Assembly (NCBI RefSeq): GCF_030463535.1
Contig: NC_132893.1
Location: forward strand, 30,388,782-30,452,781
Reading direction: 5' to 3'
Source of the DNA: Salminus brasiliensis
Taxonomy: Eukaryota > Chordata > Actinopteri > Characiformes > Bryconidae
Length of the DNA stretch: 64,000 nucleotides
Position 1 is the first letter of the stretch, and each line of letters opens with the position of its first letter. The notes beneath the pieces were generated by a model that had not been told where the DNA came from, did no database searches, and was given only the letters and a program-made list of their open reading frames with translations. Shown here piece after piece: positions 6,510-57,500 of the stretch. The translations under genes and the position numbers were made by a program.

Positions 6510-13929
<7,420 letters not shown>

Positions 13930-26677: not shown

Positions 26678-28699
26678 ATGGAGGTAACGACCCAGCCTGG
26701 ACCATTCGCACGCACAGATTTTCAGACTGGGATGTTTGAATGCTGTGACGACTGCTGCACATGTAAGCCTCAGCTACACCTCACAATTCTGCCTCTCTGA
26801 TTTCCCCTGGTGGAGTGAGGCAGATGTGTAAGAGCTTACCTCTGTAAATGCAGATGAAATGTTTGAATGTTGGTGGATTTAACATTTACTGTGTTTTTCC
26901 TTTCCAGGCATGTATGGATGCTTCTGTCTGCCTTGCCTGGGCTGTACCATTGCCAGTGACATGGGAGAATGCTGCCTGTGTGGTCTAGGCATGCCAATGC
27001 GCAGCGTGTACCGAACCAAATACAACATTCAGGTCAGTCAGCAGAACACACACTGATGACACTAAACATGCTCTTAGAGATTGTTGATGCTCTGACAATA
27101 CACAGGATTAGTGTGATTTATTTTAAAGATTATTACAATTACTTACATTATATTACATTAGATTCAACTTTATTGTCATTGAGGAAGTATAAGTAGTGAT
27201 TCAGTGAATTAGTAAACTACTATAAATGTTATAATCATTTATATAAATGAATCAGTAACTATTATACATGATTCAGTAATTCATTATTTATTATGTAACT
27301 AATATAAATTATTAAGTAATTAAAATTAATGAATTAGTAACTACTAAAAATGACCCTAACCACTGTAAATGATTCAGTAATTACTATGAATTGTTCAGCG
27401 CCTACTAAAAAGCATTCATCACTTATTATATGATTCAGTTCATAAATATGAATGATTAAGTTACTAATATAAATTATTAATATACTAATATACTACTATT
27501 AATAACTACTAGAATTGATTCAGTAATTACTATAAATAATTCAGTAAATATATAAAAGATTCAATAATTACTATAAATGATTCCGTAATTACTATAAATA
27601 ATTTAGTAAATATATAAAAGATTCAGTAACTATATAAATGATTCAGGAATTAATTTCAATAAATTAGTAACTACTATAAATGATTCAGTAATTACTATCA
27701 ATGATTCAGTAATTACTATAAATGATTTAGTAAATATATTAAATATTTAGTCATTACTATCAATGATTCAGTAATTACTATAAATGATTCAGGAATTAAT
27801 TTAAATAAATAAGTAACTACTATCAATGATTCAGCTACTACTACAAATGATTCAGGAACTATATAAATGACTCAGTAATTACTATGAATTGTTCAGCAAT
27901 TACTATAAATTATTCATCATTTATTATATGATTCAGTCATAGATATGAATGATTAAGTTACTACTATAAATTATTTAGTAACTACTATAATTGATTTAGT
28001 CACTACTATAAATGATTCAGTAACTATATAAATGATTCAGGAATGAATATAAATATATTAGTAACTGCTATAAATGATTCAGTACCTATGTAAATGATTT
28101 GCTAATTGTTATAAATAAATGATTAACTACTAAAAATTATTAAGTAATTATTATGAATGATTCAGTAACTACTGTAATTAATTCAGTAACTACTGCAAAT
28201 GATTCAGTAACTGCTAAAACAATTCTGTAATTACTGAAAAGTATTTAGAAACTACTATAAATGATTCAGCATCTTTTATATTCAGAAATAAATATGAACG
28301 ATTAAGTTACTACTATAAATAATTCAGTAAATACTTTAGTACTTTAGTAATTCAGTAAAGATTTAGTCATTTCTTTAAATGATTCAGTAACTTCTATAAG
28401 ACTCATATAGCAGTGGTGCAGTTATAGAGTGAGGACTTGAAACCTGGGCCCTCAGGGTTTAGGGCTTAGATTAGAGTAAATGTACTGAACTCTGTGCACT
28501 TGGTGGTGGTAGCAGATGTGTGTGAGCAGATGTGTGTATGAAATAATGCACAAGTGAGTGAGTAGCGCCCTCTACTGTTTGCTCTGATCTGCAGGGATCC
28601 ATGTGCAACGACTTCTGTGTCAGCCAGTTCTGCCTGCCCTGCTCTACCTGTCAGATAAAGAGAGACATTGACAGGAGGAAGCAGCAGGGGATTTTCTGA
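26678..28699 (+). CDS. PLAC8 / cornifelin family protein
   Basis: Coding exons 26678-26762, 26908-27032 and 28595-28699 (315 bp, 104 residues) are in frame at both junctions. The PLAC8 domain covers nearly the whole chain. Residues 22-41 hold the Cys-rich signature (CCDDCCTCMYGCFCLPCLGC), followed by ASDMGECCLCG, MRSVYRTKYNIQGSMCNDF and a second Cys group FCLPCSTCQIKRDIDRR. Family members (PLAC8/onzin, cornifelin) are small Cys-rich proteins of membrane or cytosol with varied reported roles. I cannot assign the exact paralogue, so I leave the symbol blank. Its position next to cops4 fits plac8. The polyadenylation signal AATAAA is at 28887-28892. Intron 2 (27033-28594) is mostly an AT-rich array. 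Confidence 0.93.
27180..28420. repeat. AT-rich degenerate tandem array, unit about 21 bp (ATTCAGTAATTACTATAAATG)
   Basis: More than 50 imperfect copies of a GATTCAGTAA-TTACTATAAAT unit fill about 80% of the last intron of the PLAC8-like gene. Units vary between about 17 and 24 bp, and some carry GAATTA or ATATAT variants. Confidence 0.85.
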
Positions 28700-31784: not shown

Positions 31785-37813
<6,029 letters not shown>

Positions 37814-38208: not shown

Positions 38209-41200
38209 GTGTATAGGGTTTAGGATGTAGGGTGTAGGGTGTAGTGTATAGGGTTTTGGATGTAGGGTGTAGGGTGTGGAGTATAGGGTTTTGGATGTAG
38301 GGTGTAGGGTGTGGAGTATAGGGTTTAGGATGTAGTGTGTAGGGTGTAGTGTATAGGGTTTAGGATGTAGGATGTAGTGTATAGGGTTTAGGATGTAGTT
38401 TGTAGAGTATAGGGTTTAGGATTTAGTGTGTAAGGTATGGAGTATAGGGTTTAGGATGTAGTGTGTAGGGTGTAGTGTATAGGGTTTTGGATGTAGGGTG
38501 TAGGGTGTGGAGTATAGGGTTTAGGATGTAGTGTGTAGGGTGTAGTGTATAGGGTTTTGGATGTAGGGTGTAGGGTGTGGAGTATAGGGTTTTGGATGTA
38601 GGGTGTAGGGTGTGGAGTATAGGGTTTAGGATGTAGGGTGTGGAGTATAGGGTTTAGGATGTAGTTTGTAGAGTATAGGGTTTAGGATTTAGTGTGTAAG
38701 GTATGGAGTATAGGGTTTTGGATGTAGTGTGTAGGGTGTGGAGTATAGGGTTTAGGATGTAGTGTGTAGGGTGTGGAGTATAGGGTTTAGGATGTAGTGT
38801 GTAGGGTGTAGTGTATAGGGTTTTGGATGTAGGGTGTAGGGTGTGGAGTATAGGGTTTAGGATGTAGTGTGTAGGGTGTAGTGTATAGGGTTTAGGATGT
38901 AGTGTGTAGGGTGTGGTGTATAGGGTTTTGGATGTAGGGTGTAGGGTGTAGTGTATAGGGTTTAGGATGTAGGGTGTAGTGTATAGGGTTTAGGATGTAG
39001 TTTGTAGAGTATAGGGTTTAGGATTTAGTGTGTAAGGTATGGAGTATAGGGTTTAGGATGTAGTGTGTAGGGTGTGGAGTATAGGGTTTAGGATGTAGGG
39101 TGTAGTGTATAGGGTTTAGGATGTAGTTTGTAGAGTATAGGGTTTAGGATTTACTGTGTAAGGTATGGATATAGGGTTTAGGATGTAGTGTGTAGGGTGT
39201 GGAGTATAGGGTTTAGGATGTAGTGTGTAGGGTGTAGTATATAGGGTTTAGGATGTAGTTTGTAGAGTGTGGAGTATAGGGTTTAGGATGTAATGTGTAG
39301 GGTGTGGTGTATAGGGTTTAGGCTGTAGTGTGTAGGGTGTAGAGTATAAGGTTTAGGATGTAGTGTGTAGGGTGTGGAGTATAGGGTTTAGGATGTAGTG
39401 TGTAGGGTGTAGAGTATAGGGTTTAGGATGTAGGGTGTAGAGTATAGGGTTTAGGATGTAGTGTGTAGGGTGTAGTGTATAGGGTTTAGGATGTAGTGTG
39501 TAGGGTGTGGAGTATAGGGTTTAGGATGTAGGGTGTAGTGTATAGGGTTTAGGATGTAGTGTGTAGGGTGTGGAGTATAGGGTTTAGGATTTAGTGTGTA
39601 AGGTATGGAGTATAGGGTTTAGGATGTAGTGTGTAGGGTGTGGAGTATAGGGTTTAGGATGTAGGGTGTAGTGTATAGGGTTTAGGATGTAGTTTGTAGA
39701 GTATAGGGTTTAGGATTTAGTGTGTAAGGTATGGAGTATAGGGTTTAGGATGTAGTGTGTAGGGTGTGGAGTATAGGGTTTAGGATGTAGTGTGTAGGGT
39801 GTGGGGTATAGGGTTTAGGATGTAGTGTGTAGGGTGTAGTATATAGGGTTTAGGATGTAGTTTGTAGAGTGTAGAGTATAGGGTTTAGGATTTAGTGTGT
39901 AAGGTATGGAGTATAGGGTTTAGGATGTAGTGTGTAGGGTGTAGAGTATAAGGTTTAGGATGTAGTGTGTAGGGTGTAGTATATAGGGTTTAGGATGTAG
40001 TGTGTAAGGTATAGAGTATAGGGTTTAGGCTGTAGTGTGTAGGGTGTAGTATATAGGGTTTAGGATGTAGTGTGTAGAGTGTAGAGTATAGGGTTTAGGC
40101 TGTAGTGTGTAGGGTGTAGTGTATAGGGTTTAGGATGTAGTGTGTAGGGTGTGGAGTATAGGGTTTAGGCTGTAGTGTGTAGGGTGTAGTGTATAGGGTT
40201 TAGACTGTAGTTTGTAGGGTGTGGAGTATAAGGTTTAGGATGTAGTGTGTAGGGTGTGGTGTATAGGGTTTTGGATGTAGGGTGTAGGGTGTAGTGTATA
40301 GGGTTTTGGATGTAGTGTGTAGGGTGTGGAGTATAGGGTTTAGAATGTAGTGTGTAGGGTGTAGTGTATAGGGTTTAGATTGTAGTTTGTAGGGTGTAGT
40401 GTATAGGGTTTAGGATGTAGTGTGTAGGGTGTAGAGTATAGGGTTTAGGATTTAGTGTGTAAGGTGTGGAGTATAGGGTTTAGGATGTAGTGTATAGTGT
40501 GTAGAGTACAGGGTTTAGGATGTAATGTGTAGGGTGTGTGTAGGGTAGTCTAGTGTGTAGTGTGTACTGCCTAGGCTGTAGTGTATAAAGTGTAGGTTGT
40601 TGACTAGTTTGCAGTGTATAGGTTGTAGGGTATAGGGGGCGGTGTATAGCATGTAGGTTATCGGTTGTAGTATGTAGGGTATAGTGTGTAGTGTTTTGGG
40701 TCTAGTGTGTAGTGTGTAGTGCATAGGCTGTAGTGTATAAAGTGCAGGTTGTTGTCTAGTTTGCAGTGTACAGTTTGTAGTCTGTAGTGTGCAGGCTGTA
40801 GGGTGTAGTGTTTAGGGTCTAGGGTGTAGTGTGTAGTGCATAGGCTGTAGTGTATAAAGTGTAGGTTGTTGTCTAGTTTGCAGTGTACAGTCTGTAGTCT
40901 GTAGTGTGCAGGCTGTAGTGTGCAGGCTGTAGGGTGTAGGGTGTAGTGTATAGTGCATAGGCTGTAGTGTATAAAGTGTAGGTTGTTGTCTAGTTTGCAG
41001 TGTACAGTCTGTAGTCTGTAGTGTGCAGGCTGTAGGGTGTAGGGTCTAGTGTGTAGTGTGTACTGCCTAGGTTGTTGACTAGTTTGCAGTGTACAGTCTG
41101 TAGTGTGCAGGCTGTAGGGTGTAGGGTCTAGTGTGTAGTGTGTACTGCCTAGGTTGTTGACTAGTTTGCAGTGTACAGTCTGTAGTGTGCAGGCTGTAGG

Positions 41201-41521
41201 GTGTAGGGTCTAGTGTGTAGTGTGTACTGCCTAGGTTGTTGACTAGTTTGCAGTGTACAGTCTGTAGTGTGCAGGCTGTAGTGTGCAGGCTGTAGTGTGC
41301 AGGCTGTAGGGTGTAGGCTGTAGGGTGTAGGGTCTAGTGTGCAGGCTGTAGGGTCTAGTGTGCAGGCTGTAGGGTGTAGGGTGTAGGGTCTAGTGTGCAG
41401 GCTGTAGGGTGTAGGGTCTAGTGTGCAGGCTGCAGGGTGTAGGGTCTAGTGTGCAGGCTGTAGGGTGTAGGGTGTAGGGTCTAGTGTGCAGGCTGTAGGG
41501 TGTAGGGTGTAGGGTGTAGGG
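38209..41521. repeat. 3.3-kb G-rich heptamer satellite between cops4 and lin54
   Basis: The whole array reads in 7-bp steps around the consensus GGGTGTA. From 38209 to about 40510 a higher-order unit of five heptamers (35 bp) dominates, ending in GAGTATA then GGGTTTA, with many units shortened by whole heptamers. From about 40520 to 41290 a second type recurs, with GTTTGCA, GTGTACA and CTGTAGT heptamers. From about 41290 to 41521 simpler TGTAGGG, TCTAGTG and TGCAGGC heptamers prevail. G is on the plus strand throughout. The array fills almost all of the gap between the cops4 start and the lin54 CpG-rich promoter. Apparent open frames in it are artefacts. Confidence 0.97.
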
Positions 41522-41985
41522 TTCAAGATAAGACGCTAAAAGCGGACAACCCGTGCGCGCGGGCGTTCCGCGTATACGTAACACGCGGGTTCCCATGGAG
41601 GCGGAGCCTCATTATGGGATGTTAGAGGTGAAATGGCGCTCGGCGCGGTATTTTAAACAATCGGATCTGTTTCGGGAAACGTAGCGAAGCGAAAAACGGT
41701 GCGGGACCCAACTGGACCCGGACGTGCACGAACGCAGCGACAAGCGTCCACATTCCCAGGGAAGCCGCCGTGACAGAAACGTAAGAAACCCTGCGCTGCT
41801 CGGTGCTGGTCCCGCTGCTCGGTGCTGCTCGGTGCTGCTCGGTGCTGGTCGCTGCGGGCAGGATGATCTTAGCTGCTTGCGTTAGCCGGTTAGCCGGTTA
41901 GCCTCTGGCCGATAGCGGGGTTTAGCCGCCGAGCTAACAGCTGATATATTCCCTGCTCGACTCAGCAGGGCGGACTTTCTGTTTC
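41522..41985 (+). promoter_or_regulatory. lin54: CpG-rich promoter and non-coding exon 1 of lin54
   Basis: CpG-dense sequence starts directly at the end of the heptamer satellite. A strong donor (GACAGAAAC|GTAAGAAAC) lies at 41780/41781 and pairs in frame-independent fashion with the acceptor at 47667. Possible elements are a YY1-like AAATGGCGC at 41631, TTTTAAA at 41651 and an E2F-like TTTCGGGAAA at 41670-41679. The transcription start is probably between 41620 and 41720. No TATA box is evident. Confidence 0.6.
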
Positions 41986-43021
41986 TATGGGGGTTTGCTC
42001 CACAACACCCAAAATAAAAGTAGCTGAAAAGACTGTATGGCACCTCAGTTTAATTTAGGAGCTTATCTATAAGAGTGTATAGCTATATCTAGCTAACAAC
42101 GTTTGTCTTATTTAATCGACAAGTAAAGTTGACAGCAATGACAGCAGCCTTTCTAGTGATTATCTAGCTAGATATTATAAGTAGATATATTTTGAGTAGC
42201 TATATATTTTTTTCATTGCATTTATGAGCTCAATAAAGTAGGCTATTGTACAAAACATCGCCAGTTTACACATTTTTATATAGCACTAGTGCATTTATTA
42301 TTATTATTACTAATTGATGTCTGTGGTATGGTCGCTTTGCTTATGTTTTCTTTTTATTTGTGTAACTAGCTAATTGTCTGCTCAGGATTTATTACGGTTA
42401 CATTAATAAGTTGGCTAATCGGGCATCCATTGCGCGCAGATATAGTTAAATATTTATTATTATTATTATTTTTTTTTATATGTGCAATTGAACAACTGAA
42501 AGACTGCGAGGATAAGGTTAAAATTAGTTAAAATAAATTATTAATGTCTGAATTTGGGCTGGAGGGTGGTTGTATACAAACCCAGGCGGTGTTGCAGTGC
42601 GCGTGGAAGTTCCTGTTGGTGCCCCGTGCGAAAGAGACCTGGTGCAGTTTATTAAATAATGAGGGAAACGATGGTTATGCATGCTTATATGCTTATAGAC
42701 GGTAAATAATTTTTTTTTGCACGTTTGCATCTGCCTTTTAGCGCCTGCCAAAGCCGGCAGACCCAGTAAACCCCCTCTCCGCTGTTGTTTTTCTCGTGTC
42801 TGAAAATGAACCGATGACGAGTTGAAAATGGCGGATCTTTCGAAATCCAACCCGGGCCTGAAATAGAAACGCAGCTCGGCTGCCCGCTTCCCGCAGGACT
42901 CCTCATCGCCACACCTCACTCTTTCCAGCCTGGATCGATCTGTCATTGCGACCCAGGTTCATTTACAAACTGCAAAGCAATGGTTGATAAAAATCGACCA
43001 ACGCTGGTGAAAAGCCCCTAA

Positions 43022-43620: not shown

Positions 43621-46260
43621 GCCTTTAGTCTTTATGTACTAACTAGCTTTTCACTTGCTGCTTCGAATAAGGCCGCTGTTCTTTCTGACTTTCTCTTCAT
43701 AACTTCAAAATATTATGTTTTTTTTACACTAATGCTGCTTACACAGTTATTGTCTGTGTTTTCTCTCTTTTTAATTAAATATTTAGGCGAATTAATTGTT
43801 CCTAAATGTATTTATGGATTTCATATGCATCCTGCTGTTGTTGAGTGACCACATTAGACTGGCTTATTAGACAGAGAGAAATCTCAGTTATTAACTGTAT
43901 TATTGTCATATAACTGATATAAGCTGTTATTTAAGCACTAAATAAAAAATCTAGTGTTTTTAATGTTCATTTTTGGCCTAAAAATGTTGTGGTCCAGGAC
44001 AGTTGGCTCTTCAGCCTTTAGTCTTTATGTACTAACTAGCTTTTCACTTGCTGCTTCGAATAAGGCCGCTGATATTTCTGACTTTCTCTTCATAACTTCA
44101 AAATATTATGTTTTTTTACACTAATACTGTTTACACAGTTATTGTCTGTGTTTTCTCTCTTTTTAATTAAATATTTAGGTGAATTAATTGTTCCTAAATG
44201 TATAAATATATGTATGGGTTTAATATGCATCCTCCTGTTGTTGACACTGGCTTATTAGACAGAGAGAAATCTCAGTTATTAACTGTATTATTGTCATATC
44301 ACTGATATAAGCTGTTATTTAAGAACTAAGGAGTAAATTTAGTGTTTTTAATGTTCATTTTTGGCCTAAAAATGTTGTGGCCCAGGACAGTTGGCTCCTC
44401 AGCCTTTAGTCTTTATGTACTAACTAGCTTTTCGCTCTAAATAAGGCCGCTGATATTTCTCTATTTAACTTAAATATCTTTACTTTTACACTAATGCTGT
44501 TTACACAGTTATTGTCTGCGTTTTCTCTCTTTTTAATTAAATATTTAGTCGAATTAATTGTTCCTAAATGTATAAATATATGTATGGGTTTAATATGCAT
44601 CCTCCTGTTGTTGACACTGGCTTATTAGACAGACAGAAATCTGTTATTAACTGTATTATTGTCATATCACTGATATAAGCTGTTATTTAAGAACTAAGGA
44701 GTAAATTTAGTGTTTTTAATCTTCATTTTTGGCCTAAAAATGTTGTGGTCCAGGACAGTTGGCTCCTCAGCCTTTAGTCTTTATGTACTAACTAGCTTTT
44801 CGCTCTAAATAAGGCCGCTGATATTTCTCTATTTAACTTAAATATCTTTACTTTTACACTAATGCTGCTTACACAGTTATTGTCTGCGTTTTCTCTCTTT
44901 TTAATTAAATATTTAGTCGAATTAATTGTTCCTAAATGTATAAATATATGTATGGGTTTAATATGCATCCTCCTGTTGTTGACACTGGCTTATTAGACAG
45001 ACAGAAATCTGTTATTAACTGTATTATTGTCATATCACTGATATAAGCTGTTATTTAAGAACTAAGGAGTAAATTTAGTGTTTTTAATCTTCATTTTTGG
45101 CCTAAAAATGTTGTGGTCCAGGACAGTTGGCTCCTCAGCCTTTAGTCTTTATGTACTAACTAGCTTTTCGCTCTAAATAAGGCCGCTGATATTTCTCTAT
45201 TTAACTTAAATATCTTTACTTTTACACTAATGCTGCTTACACAGTTATTGTCTGCGTTTTCTCTCTTTTTAATTAAATATTTAGGCGAATTAATTGTTCC
45301 TAAATGTATTTATGGATTTCATATGCATCCTGCTGTTGTTGAGTGACCACATTAGACTGGCTTATTAGACAGACAGAAATCTCAGTTATTAACTGTATTA
45401 TTGTCATATAACTGATATAAGCTGTTATTTAAGCACTAAGGAGTAAATCTAGTGTTTTTAATGTTCATTTTTGGCCTAAAAATGTTGTGGTCCAGGACAG
45501 TTGGCTCCCCAGCCTTTAGTCTTTATGTACTAACTAGCTTTTCACTTGCTGCTTCGAATAAGGCCGCTGATATTTCTGACTTTCTCTTCATAACTTCAAA
45601 ATATTATGTTTTTTTTTACACTAATACTGTTTACACAGTTATTGTCTGCGTTTTCTCCCTTTTAATTAAATATTTAGGTGAATTAATTGTTCCTAAATGT
45701 ATAAATATATGTATGGGTTTAATATGCATCCTGCTGTTGTTGACACTGGCTTATTAGACAGACAGAAATCTGTTATTAACTGTATTATTGTCATATCACT
45801 GATATAAGCTGTTATTTAAGCACTAAGGAGTAAATCTAGTGTTTTTAATGTTCACTTTTGGCCTAAAAATGTTGTGGTCCAGGACAGTTGGCTCCCCAGC
45901 CTTTAGTCTTTATGTACTAACTAGCTTTTCGCTCTAAATAAGGCCGCTGATATTTCTCTATGTAACTTAAATATCTTTACTTTTACACTAATGCTGTTTA
46001 CACAGTTATTGCCTGCGTTTTCTTGTTTTTTATTGTTGGTATATTTCTAAATTACTTTATGGATTTAACATGCATCCTGCTGTTTTTGAGCAACTACACT
46101 AGACTGCATTATTAGACAGAAATCTATCAGTTATTTACTGTATCTTTTTTTTTTTTTACGTGTCACTGATGTAGGCTATTATTTAACCACTAAAGAGAGA
46201 ATGTAGTGTTTTTAATGTTAATTTTTGGCCTAAAACAGTTAATGTATTTGTTAATGTAAG
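43621..46260 (+). repeat. Seven-copy, 368-393-bp satellite in lin54 intron 1
   Basis: Copies start at GCCTTTAGTCTTTATGTAC: 43621, 44014, 44402, 44770, 45138, 45512 and 45899. An eighth, badly degraded start lies near 46268. Two subtypes differ in the segment after AACTAGCTTTTC. Type A (CACTTGCTGCTTCGAATAAG) is copies 1, 2 and 6. Type B (GCTCTAAATAAGG) is copies 3, 4, 5 and 7. Copies 3 and 4 have exactly 368-bp periods and are almost identical. No open frame is shared by all copies. Confidence 0.95.
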
Positions 46261-47688: not shown

Positions 47689-48415
47689 ATGGACGTGGTG
47701 TCGCCAGATATGAACAGTCTCCTCCCTGATGAGATCATGGACACTGAGGCCATTGCCATGGAGGAGGACCCCCCCAGTGAACCTCCTGCACCATCCACCC
47801 AGTCAGAGCCTGAGCCAGCTCAGGTTCCTATGGAAACAGAGGTGCCTGAAATCATCAGCTTGTGTCCTGCTGCCATGCCGACACAGAAGACGCAAGCTCT
47901 GACCACATCCACCACCACAGACTCCACTTTGTGCAGCATCAGCTCTGGGACGCAGCTTCTCGTGACCTCCTCTTCTGGCCTTAAGCCAGTCACCACCTCC
48001 ACCACCCAGTCCAGTCCTGTGGTGGGCCAGGGCCTTCCCAAGCTCTCTGCCCCTTTAACGCTCCCGGCCAACCACCAGCTGATTCTTAACAAAGTGGCTG
48101 CAGATGGCAAGCCTCCAGCCACCGCTGTCCTCAAGCAGGAAGGCCAGAAACTCTTGGTCACTGGTCTCAGTAAAACTGGGCAGCCCCTCGTGCTGGCTTT
48201 GCCTCACACGTGGAGCAAGCCAGCCACATCTCAGGGCACAGGGGACGGCAAGGCTCAGCCGACGCAGTTTAAAGTGGTGACTGCAGGGGCGAAGCCTGTC
48301 ATCGGAGTTCAGGCCGTGAGCTCGGCCAGCCAGCTTCTGGGGTCCTCTACACCATTGCAGGCCCAGCAGCTCAAAGCTGTTCAGGTGTGTATGCATGCAC
48401 TAGGGATGGGTCAGC

Positions 48416-48506
<91 letters not shown>

Positions 48507-54500: not shown

Positions 54501-57500
54501 ATGTGTCTGGGTTGCAGTTTCTCAGTTAGCTGGAAAATGGCACATGAGATGATGTGAAGGCCATTCCTGAAGACTTTAGATTTTCATACTGACACAGAAA
54601 CCTTATATGGTGGAATTTCTTATCGTATATTCGATGTAACAGTGTGCTGTGGACAGAATCACTTGCCTGTTGGTGGGTGCATAAAGTACTCTCAGAGCTT
54701 GCGTGAATAGAATTGTGGACCCAGTGTGTGCATCTAATTGTCTCTGCTTGCTCCTGTAGCTTCCACAGTCTGCATTTGTGACTTTGGCCAGCAGCTCTGG
54801 TTTTTCCGCCCCTGCCTCCATTCAGACCCAAGCCAGGCTTCCTCTCAACGGGTAAATGAACCATCATGCACGGAGTCTGCTTTTTGCACTATGATGTAAT
54901 TAATAAATGCAACAGCATGCTTCAGCAGTCCAACACCGTAATCCTCTCGTTTTTGAAAACTGGCCTTTCTCTCTGGATTATTGACTAATTGTATTAATCT
55001 GATCAGAGCATCTGCCTCGTTTAAGAAGCACTGACGAGCCAAAACATTATGACCATTATAAATTCTAATGTGACACCGAAACGGCTCACTCTACAAGACC
55101 TCCGAAAGTGTCCTGTGGTATCTGGCACGAAGACATTATTTGCATATTCTTTAAAAGTCCTGTATGTTGTGAGATGGAGCTGACAACATTCTTCCATTGC
55201 CAGAAAGTCCAGCGGATACACAGCCCCATATGTAGCAGATTGCAATGCACAGTGTGTCATGACACATTTCCCCCTTCGGTCTGTTCAGTCAGACTAAATA
55301 GCAGTCATTGTCATTGTGCGTCATTCAGCCTTGACAGCCAACACCCTGCTGCTGATTTGTTGTGATTTGTGGTCAGTTGGTACTCACCACGGCTGACCAC
55401 CGCACAAGCCTTGCCATTTCTGAGGTGCTCCAACCTAGTCGTCTTGCTCTAACGATTTGGACCTTCTCTAACTCACTCTAAGATAAGATAAGAGAGTCCT
55501 TTATTAGTCCCGCAGTGGGGAAATTCACAATTTCTAACTTGTACCCCTGACCTTGCTCTTGATCTTTGAATGGTCATAATGCTTTGTCTCATCTGTGTAT
55601 GTAAACTCACCATTTGTTTGATTCAGTTCTTTACTTTGTTAAATTAATATTTTTTTGGTCTTATTGCAGTTTATCAGCATCAGATACAACCTCAAGACCA
55701 CGAAAGCCTTGCAACTGCACCAAGTCACAGTGCTTGAAGCTGTAAGTGTGGCTTTACTTCTGTTCATCAATATCCGTTTCCAGAACATGTGCATAGCAGA
55801 CTTTATCTGCGGTTTTAAACGATGAATAAAAGATGTGTCTACTTGCAGGTATTGTGACTGCTTTGCCAATGGGGAGTTTTGTAATAACTGCAACTGTGTA
55901 AATTGCTTCAACAACCTTGACCATGAGAGTGAGCGGCTTAAAGCAATTAAGGTACCAAGGATCAGTAGTTCATACGAGTTCCTATTTTTATTACACTTCC
56001 TTTCTGTCTCTTGTAGTTCATTTGAACAATTTAGAAAAAGAAAACTGAACAGGATTCTGGCCATCCATGAGATGTTGATTTTTGTGCCGTAGGCTTGTTT
56101 GGACAGAAACCCAGTGGCCTTCAAACCCAAGATTGGCAAAGGAAAAGAGGGAGAATCAGACAGAAGGCACAGCAAAGGCTGCAACTGCAAGAAGTCTGGC
56201 TGTCTGAAGAACTATTGCGAGTGCTATGAGGTGAGCTGGCTCTTCGGACCCGGTCATTGGTGTGGTTTTGTGTGTTGTTTTGTTTGTTTGTTTGTTTCAT
56301 AGATAAATTATCAAACAGATAAATTCTCTGTTATTAAGGCCTTACACAGACAACTGTTCACTCCCGAGTGGGACAGCTGTCTTAAGTGTTGGTGTCATCA
56401 TCTGCAGATTGTTGGTTCAATCCCTGGTGATGCCATTTGTGGCCAGGAGTCCCAGAGAGCACAATTGACCTTGCTCTCCCTGGGTGGGTAGGATGGCCCT
56501 CCGCCACTCCCTCCTTTCACTCAGTGTAATTTTAGCCAGTGTGGGCGTCCGTCTGTTAGGTGATGTAACCGATCCGGCAGTTAGTGTTCTCCTCCTGGCT
56601 TGTTCAGCTGTCTAGTGACGTTGCTTTAGAGGCAGTTTAAAAAGAAGTGGTAGGTTTGCTTCATGTGACTCAGAGTAAGCACATGCTAGCCTTCACCTTC
56701 CCAGCACTTGTGGTGGTGTTTGATAAGGGAGTTCTAGTCGACTGGGAGGGAATTGGGGTGAATTAATTTTTTTTATATATCACAATAATATATGGGTTAT
56801 ATTTGTTTAATATGAATATTTTAAAAGAATCTTCTGTTTTTAGGCAAAGATCATGTGCTCGTCAATCTGTAAGTGTGTGGGCTGTAAGAACTTTGAGGAG
56901 AGTCCAGAGAGGAAGACTCTGATGCATTTGGCTGATGCCGCAGAGGTGCGAGTGCAGCAACAGACTGCAGCGAAGACTAAGCTGTCCTCTCAGATATCAG
57001 ACCTGCTCACCAGAACTACACCAGCCGTCACCAGCGGAGGCGGGAAGTAAGGCCTGCCTTTTTGGTTTCACACTCCACTTTGCTGGGTTGAGAATCCTTA
57101 CCTTAATCTTGATTCAGACGTGCTGATGTTTATATTAAAAGAAAAAAACATGGCAAAGCTTAATTGTCACTAATATTCCAGTAAAATATTTGCAAATTAA
57201 AACATGAGCACCAAAGCAGAACCGCTTTTGCCAGTTTATTTGGGACATTAGTCTTTTATATTAAAGAAATACTTCAGCTATCTGTCAGAATATGTATTAT
57301 ATAGTTTTATACCACAGAGAATTTCTTTTTAATTTCTCTGTGCATGAAAAAGAACCGAAAACATTCATTGTTAGTGAATTTGTCAACAGGTTTTCTGGCC
57401 TTTCTTATATTAATTAGAGAAAAATGCATCATCAATTTGTCAGTGTGCTGCTGAGGCTGCACGTAGAGGTTAGGTGGGGGTGGGGGCTGAAATATTCATT

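Follow-up and report, generated by a model that had tools for sequence, protein, structure and literature searches.

Background

Common human minisatellite VNTRs show an enrichment at transcription starts, and for some of them a correlation with expression is described (PMC8096271). GC-rich human minisatellites, for which CEB1 and CEB25 serve as the comparison here, cluster at chromosome ends (PMC3486850). A 77-nt minisatellite of the fish Nothobranchius is centromeric and present in high copy (PMC2688266). The minimal heptamer of KLF4 is RRGGYGY, and a repeat of 60 x 19 bp has been described whose units are potential sites of KLF4 K409Q (PMC9391581).

The window, which is the whole 64,000-nucleotide stretch of Salminus brasiliensis DNA analyzed here (C16:30388782-30452781), contains a heptamer array that resembles each of these systems in some respects. 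Like the promoter VNTRs in PMC8096271, it has a pattern of at least 7 bp near a likely promoter; it is known here from the sequence of one assembly. It shares the G-rich strand and the tandem turnover of CEB1 and CEB25, and the chromosome-end clustering in human has its counterpart in a contig-end bias of the related loci described below. It differs from CEB1 and CEB25 in its 7-bp base unit, in having one canonical G3 motif in 3.3 kb, and in having CpG islands on one side only. As a fish tandem repeat with a unit of 6-99 nt it is similar to the Nothobranchius minisatellite (PMC2688266), but its largest part, zone 1, is private to one locus. The heptamers AGGGTGT, AGGGCGT, and AGGGCGC fit the KLF4 RRGGYGY of PMC9391581, whereas many other units of the class do not.

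Among the titles listed from the open-licence literature, none describes the array or a promoter heptamer of fixed orientation, and literal-string matches were unrelated by title.

Structure of the heptamer array

The array occupies 38209-41521/41522 on the plus strand (ends within a base or two), is ~3.3 kb long, and has a base unit of 7 bp. The original prediction had placed it at these coordinates, to within a base or two, with a strict 7-bp phase and a 35-bp higher-order unit. The analysis agrees with it in all three respects. In 38209-41521, identity is 0.677 at lag 7 and 0.775 at lag 35, while 200 shuffles gave a mean of 0.337 and a maximum of 0.357 at lag 7. The periodicity at lag 7 is absent from the flanks (0.25 in 3.3 kb on the left and 0.27 in 2.2 kb on the right). 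Parsing by dynamic programming yielded 476 units of 45 types, 466 of which are exactly 7 bp. The ten others comprise a single 6-bp unit, two units of 4 bp and 3 bp where zones 1 and 2 meet, and seven 5-bp G(A/T)CTA units, which recur within a higher-order unit. Both the 7-bp base and the 35-bp higher-order unit fall within the range of 6-99 nt by which a minisatellite is defined, as in PMC2688266.

Three zones with distinct heptamer vocabularies, as originally proposed, are seen; their borders were drawn by eye. Zone 1 (38209-40542, plus strand) is composed of 35-bp units (five heptamers) and 28-bp units (four heptamers), and the consensus from 55 units is GGGTTTAGGATGTAGTGTGTAGGGTGTGGAGTATA. 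The spacing of GGGTTT-type units is five heptamers in 56 cases and four in 12, which supports the proposal that length changes by whole heptamers. Identity between 35-bp units is flat with distance (0.906 at one unit and 0.901 at 40). No block of positions in the 35-bp unit is conserved beyond chance (P about 0.6), which argues against unit-by-unit selection on the long array. Zone 1 is almost free of C (7 C in 2334 bp), with C-less runs of 953 and 706 bp; the longest such run outside the array is 97 bp. The distinct changes counted for a possible mutational loss of C (9 G>A, 1 T>C, and 1 A>G) are too few to decide on it.

Zone 2 (about 40543-41300, plus strand) has higher-order units of 117 bp and 82 bp carrying the 5-bp G(A/T)CTA. 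Zone 3 (about 41301-41522, plus strand) consists of 28-bp units of GGGTGTA, GGCTGTA, GGGTCTA, and GTGTGCA and terminates in three GGGTGTA and GGGTTCA. Exact repeats of 21, 20, and 16 heptamers are found at distances of 566, 692, and 336 bp. Together with the 82-bp tandem in zone 2, these indicate duplication of large blocks besides that of single heptamers. The array holds two CpG, at 40640 and 40662.

Two other readings of the array were tried and rejected. A G-quadruplex minisatellite of the CEB1 type would have a canonical motif per unit, and the only canonical G3 motif of the whole array is at 41498-41521, the end of zone 3; 13 are counted if loops of up to 12 are allowed. G-quadruplex function was rejected on this single motif. 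A minus-strand open frame of 183 codons extends over 40658-41209. Among 2000 heptamer shuffles of zones 2 and 3, 6% reach 183 codons, so the heptamer vocabulary may suffice to explain the frame.

The presence of GGGTTTA had been taken to link the array to the plant-type telomere repeat. This link does not hold. TTTAGGG occurs once (40811), neither (TTTAGGG)2 nor (TTAGGG)2 exists within the array, there is no YTAGGGTTR site, and the TATAGGGTTT block shows no extra conservation. On these motif counts and that block, a reading as telomere or TRF sites was also rejected. GGGTTTA is found 56 times, and the next unit is GGATGTA in 41 cases and one of its close relatives in 15, never a GGG unit. The resemblance to plant telomeres is an accident of vocabulary, GGGTTTA being one step from GGGTGTA.

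The array had also been called a satellite. All 21 matches of a 24-mer from zone 1 in the ~1.07-Gb (1.066-Gb) assembly, where repeat counts can be lower bounds, are inside this one array. 'Satellite' is thus the wrong term for a locus-private array; the test is based on the zone-1 24-mer, and words of zones 2 and 3 were searched genome-wide only as GGGTGTA runs. The same 24-mer had no match in genome_contigs or viral_contigs, and another zone-1 pattern had none in viral_contigs.

Genes and the CpG island beside the array

As originally predicted, cops4 (minus strand, ATG at 37813) and lin54 (plus strand, coding start at 47689) diverge from either side of the array, whose left end is 396 bp away from the ATG of cops4. 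The first coding exon of cops4 is at 37741-37813 on the minus strand, with a splice donor inferred by eye; its N-terminus is taken by us to be that of cops4. Of the other exons, a later one is similar to COP9 signalosome subunit 4 (E 4.9e-54), and another matches Pfam PSMD12-CSN4_N. The first coding exon of lin54 is at 47689-48420 on the plus strand, with a splice acceptor just upstream of the ATG; 48420 marks where the open frame stops. We take the N-terminus at 47689 to be lin54-like. LIN54 carries the tesmin/TSO1 CXC domain, and downstream of this exon a CXC (TCR) domain of tesmin/TSO1 is found at 55826-56092 on the plus strand (Pfam E 6.6e-5, just above the cut-off). Human COPS4 and LIN54 are presumably close head-to-head neighbors. 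Mouse Cops4 and Lin54 share one 0.73-Mb interval (PMC9024903).

A CpG island at 41523-42000 (bins from 41501, plus strand) adjoins the right end of the array and is the putative promoter of lin54. The density of CpG leaps here: there are 0 in 41251-41500, 30 in 41501-41750 (o/e 1.55), and 20 in 41751-42000 (o/e 0.88), against a mean o/e of 0.36 for the window. From the right end of the array it is another 6.2 kb to the first coding exon of lin54. The array would then separate the promoters of cops4 and lin54.

In the putative lin54 island, at 41642-41657, GGCGC precedes TTTAAA by 5 bp, and this TTTAAA is a CHR of the TTYRAA type. The GGCGC is presumably CDE-like. With the two elements so placed, self-regulation of lin54 is possible; LIN54 itself binds a CHR of the TTYRAA kind (PMC4974476).

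Related heptamer loci in the genome

In the same assembly, (GGGTGTA)3 occurs 21 times at seven loci including the window. Further words were searched together with their backwards controls. TAGGGTGTAGGGTGTAGGG occurs 47 times at 14 loci (control 1), and TAGGGAGTAGGGAGTAGGG occurs 146 times (control 3), with at least five loci among the matches listed. TAGGGCGTAGGGCGTAGGG occurs 6 times at five loci, three of them already known, and with 2 occurrences of its control it is weak as a count. At least 21 loci of the TAGGG(T/A/C)G heptamer class were found in total, and 18 of them were read.

These loci are concentrated toward contig ends. Seventeen of the 21 are less than 5 Mb from a contig end (expected, 4.4), and 13 are less than 3 Mb from one (expected, 2.65). 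The array in the window is 6.4 Mb from the end of its contig (C16, 36.84 Mb).

An array of TAGGGAG, at least 2.3 kb long, is present at G000:C6:41865273-41867565, and its matches are often 31 bp apart.

Runs of GGGTGTA are also seen in at least 116 stretches of genome_contigs, which among bacteria are mostly cyanobacterial, and in one viral contig. The bacterial tandems are up to 336 bp long by a loose measure. They have the same heptamer in tandem, but the genomes are unrelated, and the bacterial and viral tandems are taken as convergent. A similar heptamer-phased motif presumably exists in salmonid and cyprinid genomes; it was not found in the open-licence literature.

CpG-rich flanks and their orientation

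A CpG-rich flank is present at 12 of the 18 heptamer loci read. The threshold for it, at least 12 CpG in 300 bp, was fixed once the first seven loci had been seen. By the same measure, 4.2% of 2848 random points from 20 random 8-kb stretches have such a flank; these points are unmatched for distance to chromosome ends, near which gene density may be higher. The richer side lies 3' of the G-rich strand at all 12 CpG-flanked loci.

The first seven loci (the window and L140-L145) each have a 300-bp flank of 14 or more CpG, as have at most 2.2% of the random points. Their richer side is always 3' of the G-rich strand, narrowly so at L142 (18 versus 16). The array in the window has 37 CpG in the 3' 300 bp and 2 in the 5' 300 bp; the orientation count took only 41244-41521 as its run, which leaves the 3' flank unchanged. 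The window array is thus a tandem of the TAGGGNG kind with CpG-rich DNA 3' of its G-rich strand.

The orientation rule from the first seven loci was applied as a prediction to the next 11. Five of these (L169, L171, L173, L174, and L176) have at least 12 CpG, where ~0.5 is expected at 4.2%, and all five have the richer flank on the predicted side. The six loci without such a flank are L167, L170, and L172, which hold (TTAGGG)2, and L168, L175, and L177. L168 is irregular, L175 is within purine-rich simple sequence, and L177 has 11 CpG with the richer side 3'. L146, known from a hybrid match only, has 6 and 3 CpG in its flanks, below 12.

Sixteen other G-skewed tandem arrays, taken from the window and the random stretches, served as controls; five of them come from one stretch (L164), and the set is unmatched for distance to chromosome ends. 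Three of the 16 have at least 12 CpG, and all three are richer on the 5' side. Overall, 5/16 are richer on the 3' side.

Genes beside the related loci

For four genes downstream of the runs, the name is backed by a database match: lin54, uridine-cytidine kinase, glycogenin, and a cytidylyltransferase. All of them have the G-rich strand as their sense strand (4/4). In the case of uridine-cytidine kinase 2 (UCK2), 35 residues from the proposed initiator Met align to the start of a solved protein. This Met is 87 bp from the last heptamers, and exon 2 follows on the same strand. At L141, a glycogenin exon is found on the same strand at a distance of over 3 kb, and at L145 a CTP_transf_like exon likewise has this strand.

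Three more genes are named on our assumption: SERINC1-like at L140 (128 bp), MYDGF-like at L173 (100 bp), and TMEM177-like at L142, all with the G-rich strand as sense. Neither Pfam nor PDB supports these three names. Unnamed sense frames at 128 bp from the run of L171 and 121 bp from that of L176 have no Pfam match, and at L176 an antisense frame of 56 codons is longer than any in sense. A FISNA exon, whose domain points to a teleost, lies 4 kb downstream of L144 in the same sense and is too far to assign. No gene is paired with the runs of L169, L174, or L177. Overall, the start codons of different genes are 87-267 bp from the last clean heptamers.

Candidate factor sites

The array contains 77 AGGGTGT and 23 AGGGTGTGG, all on one strand; the remaining 60.7 kb contain 7 and 1, respectively, on both strands. 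RRGGYGY is found 78 times on the plus strand for the 476 units and 0 times on the minus strand, compared with 67 on both strands of the remaining 60.7 kb. The Sp/KLF core is thus dense in the array without being present in each unit.

A factor of the Sp/KLF kind is suggested because AGGGTGT, AGGGCGT, and AGGGCGC fit the KLF4 heptamer. GGGAGTA (L171, L173, L174, L176, and L177), GGGAATA (L140), and most units of the window array do not fit it, so the factor stays a candidate.

Origin of the array

On balance, we favor the view that a heptamer run near a promoter overgrew to give the array, a locus-private and strand-asymmetric minisatellite. The CpG islands beside the heptamer runs would be promoters, and the short runs would be tandem promoter-proximal sites. 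The seed of the array would have been a short TAGGGNG run flanking the lin54 CpG island at its 5' end, perhaps bound by a zinc-finger factor of the Sp/KLF kind. Replication slippage and unequal exchange could expand such runs by whole heptamers, favored near chromosome ends and in open chromatin. At lin54, this process would have run away to 3.3 kb, leaving a functional seed in a mostly neutral overgrowth. The expanded length is probably neutral, and allele length may tune lin54.

A broader proposal is put forward tentatively. Tandem TAGGGNG may be an oriented promoter element located just 5' of CpG-island promoters, with promoter architecture and the birth of VNTRs coupled; the lin54 array would be a runaway case and its zones successive expansions. 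If the oriented link holds genome-wide, it offers a simple route from a promoter motif to a promoter VNTR. A single genome would then offer a natural length series that begins at a few heptamers and reaches about 476, the question of whether promoter VNTRs originate in functional motifs would be open to direct testing, and there would be a lineage-specific promoter motif to look for in fish. If the oriented link fails, the array is an ordinary minisatellite.

That last reading, which we consider rather unlikely, assumes chance duplication of a heptamer in recombination-rich DNA near chromosome ends and no binding function; nearness to CpG islands would merely mirror the sites of breaks and open chromatin. 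The whole-unit turnover without constraint inside the unit fits it, as do the strong preference of these loci for contig ends and the fact that five long arrays, the heptamer array included, already cover 14% of the window. It fails to predict that the CpG-rich side is 3' in 12/12 loci, or that this is lacking in the 16 control arrays, and the recurrent TAGGG(T/A/C)G vocabulary does not follow from it either.

It is improbable that the runs are remnants of a dispersed transposon, one end of which carried heptamers and a CpG-rich part, although this would explain the fixed orientation. Consistent with such a remnant, ATGRRRCGC is located 7-26 bp 3' of the run in 5/13 flanks (L142, L144, L173, L174, and L177), a pattern chosen post hoc and counted without a chance control, and L143 and L177 share 33 bp at 85%. 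The all-against-all comparison of the 13 flanks (up to 500 bp), however, gave just two short matches, of 33 and 53 bp, and the start codons close to the heptamers belong to differing genes.

A degenerate interstitial telomeric array, in which the vertebrate TTAGGG drifted to a 7-bp unit, is very improbable: the G-rich strand, the contig-end bias, and the arrays of L167, L170, and L172 (with L167 lying 19 kb from a contig end), which mix TTAGGG with TGTAGGG and have no CpG-rich flanks, would suit it, but the array in the window keeps phase 7 throughout and has one TTAGGG in 3.3 kb, with neither a tandem nor YTAGGGTTR, and (TTAGGG)2 is missing from the other 14 fetched loci.

Other arrays in the window

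Three other arrays in the window were recorded. The array at 6779-8924 has 51 copies of a 42-bp unit with 97% matches and looks younger than the heptamer array. The A+T-rich array at 27239-28399 has a 21-bp unit with about 70% matches and looks older. At 43722-46034, past the CpG island and ahead of the coding start of lin54, a 368-bp unit is repeated six times.
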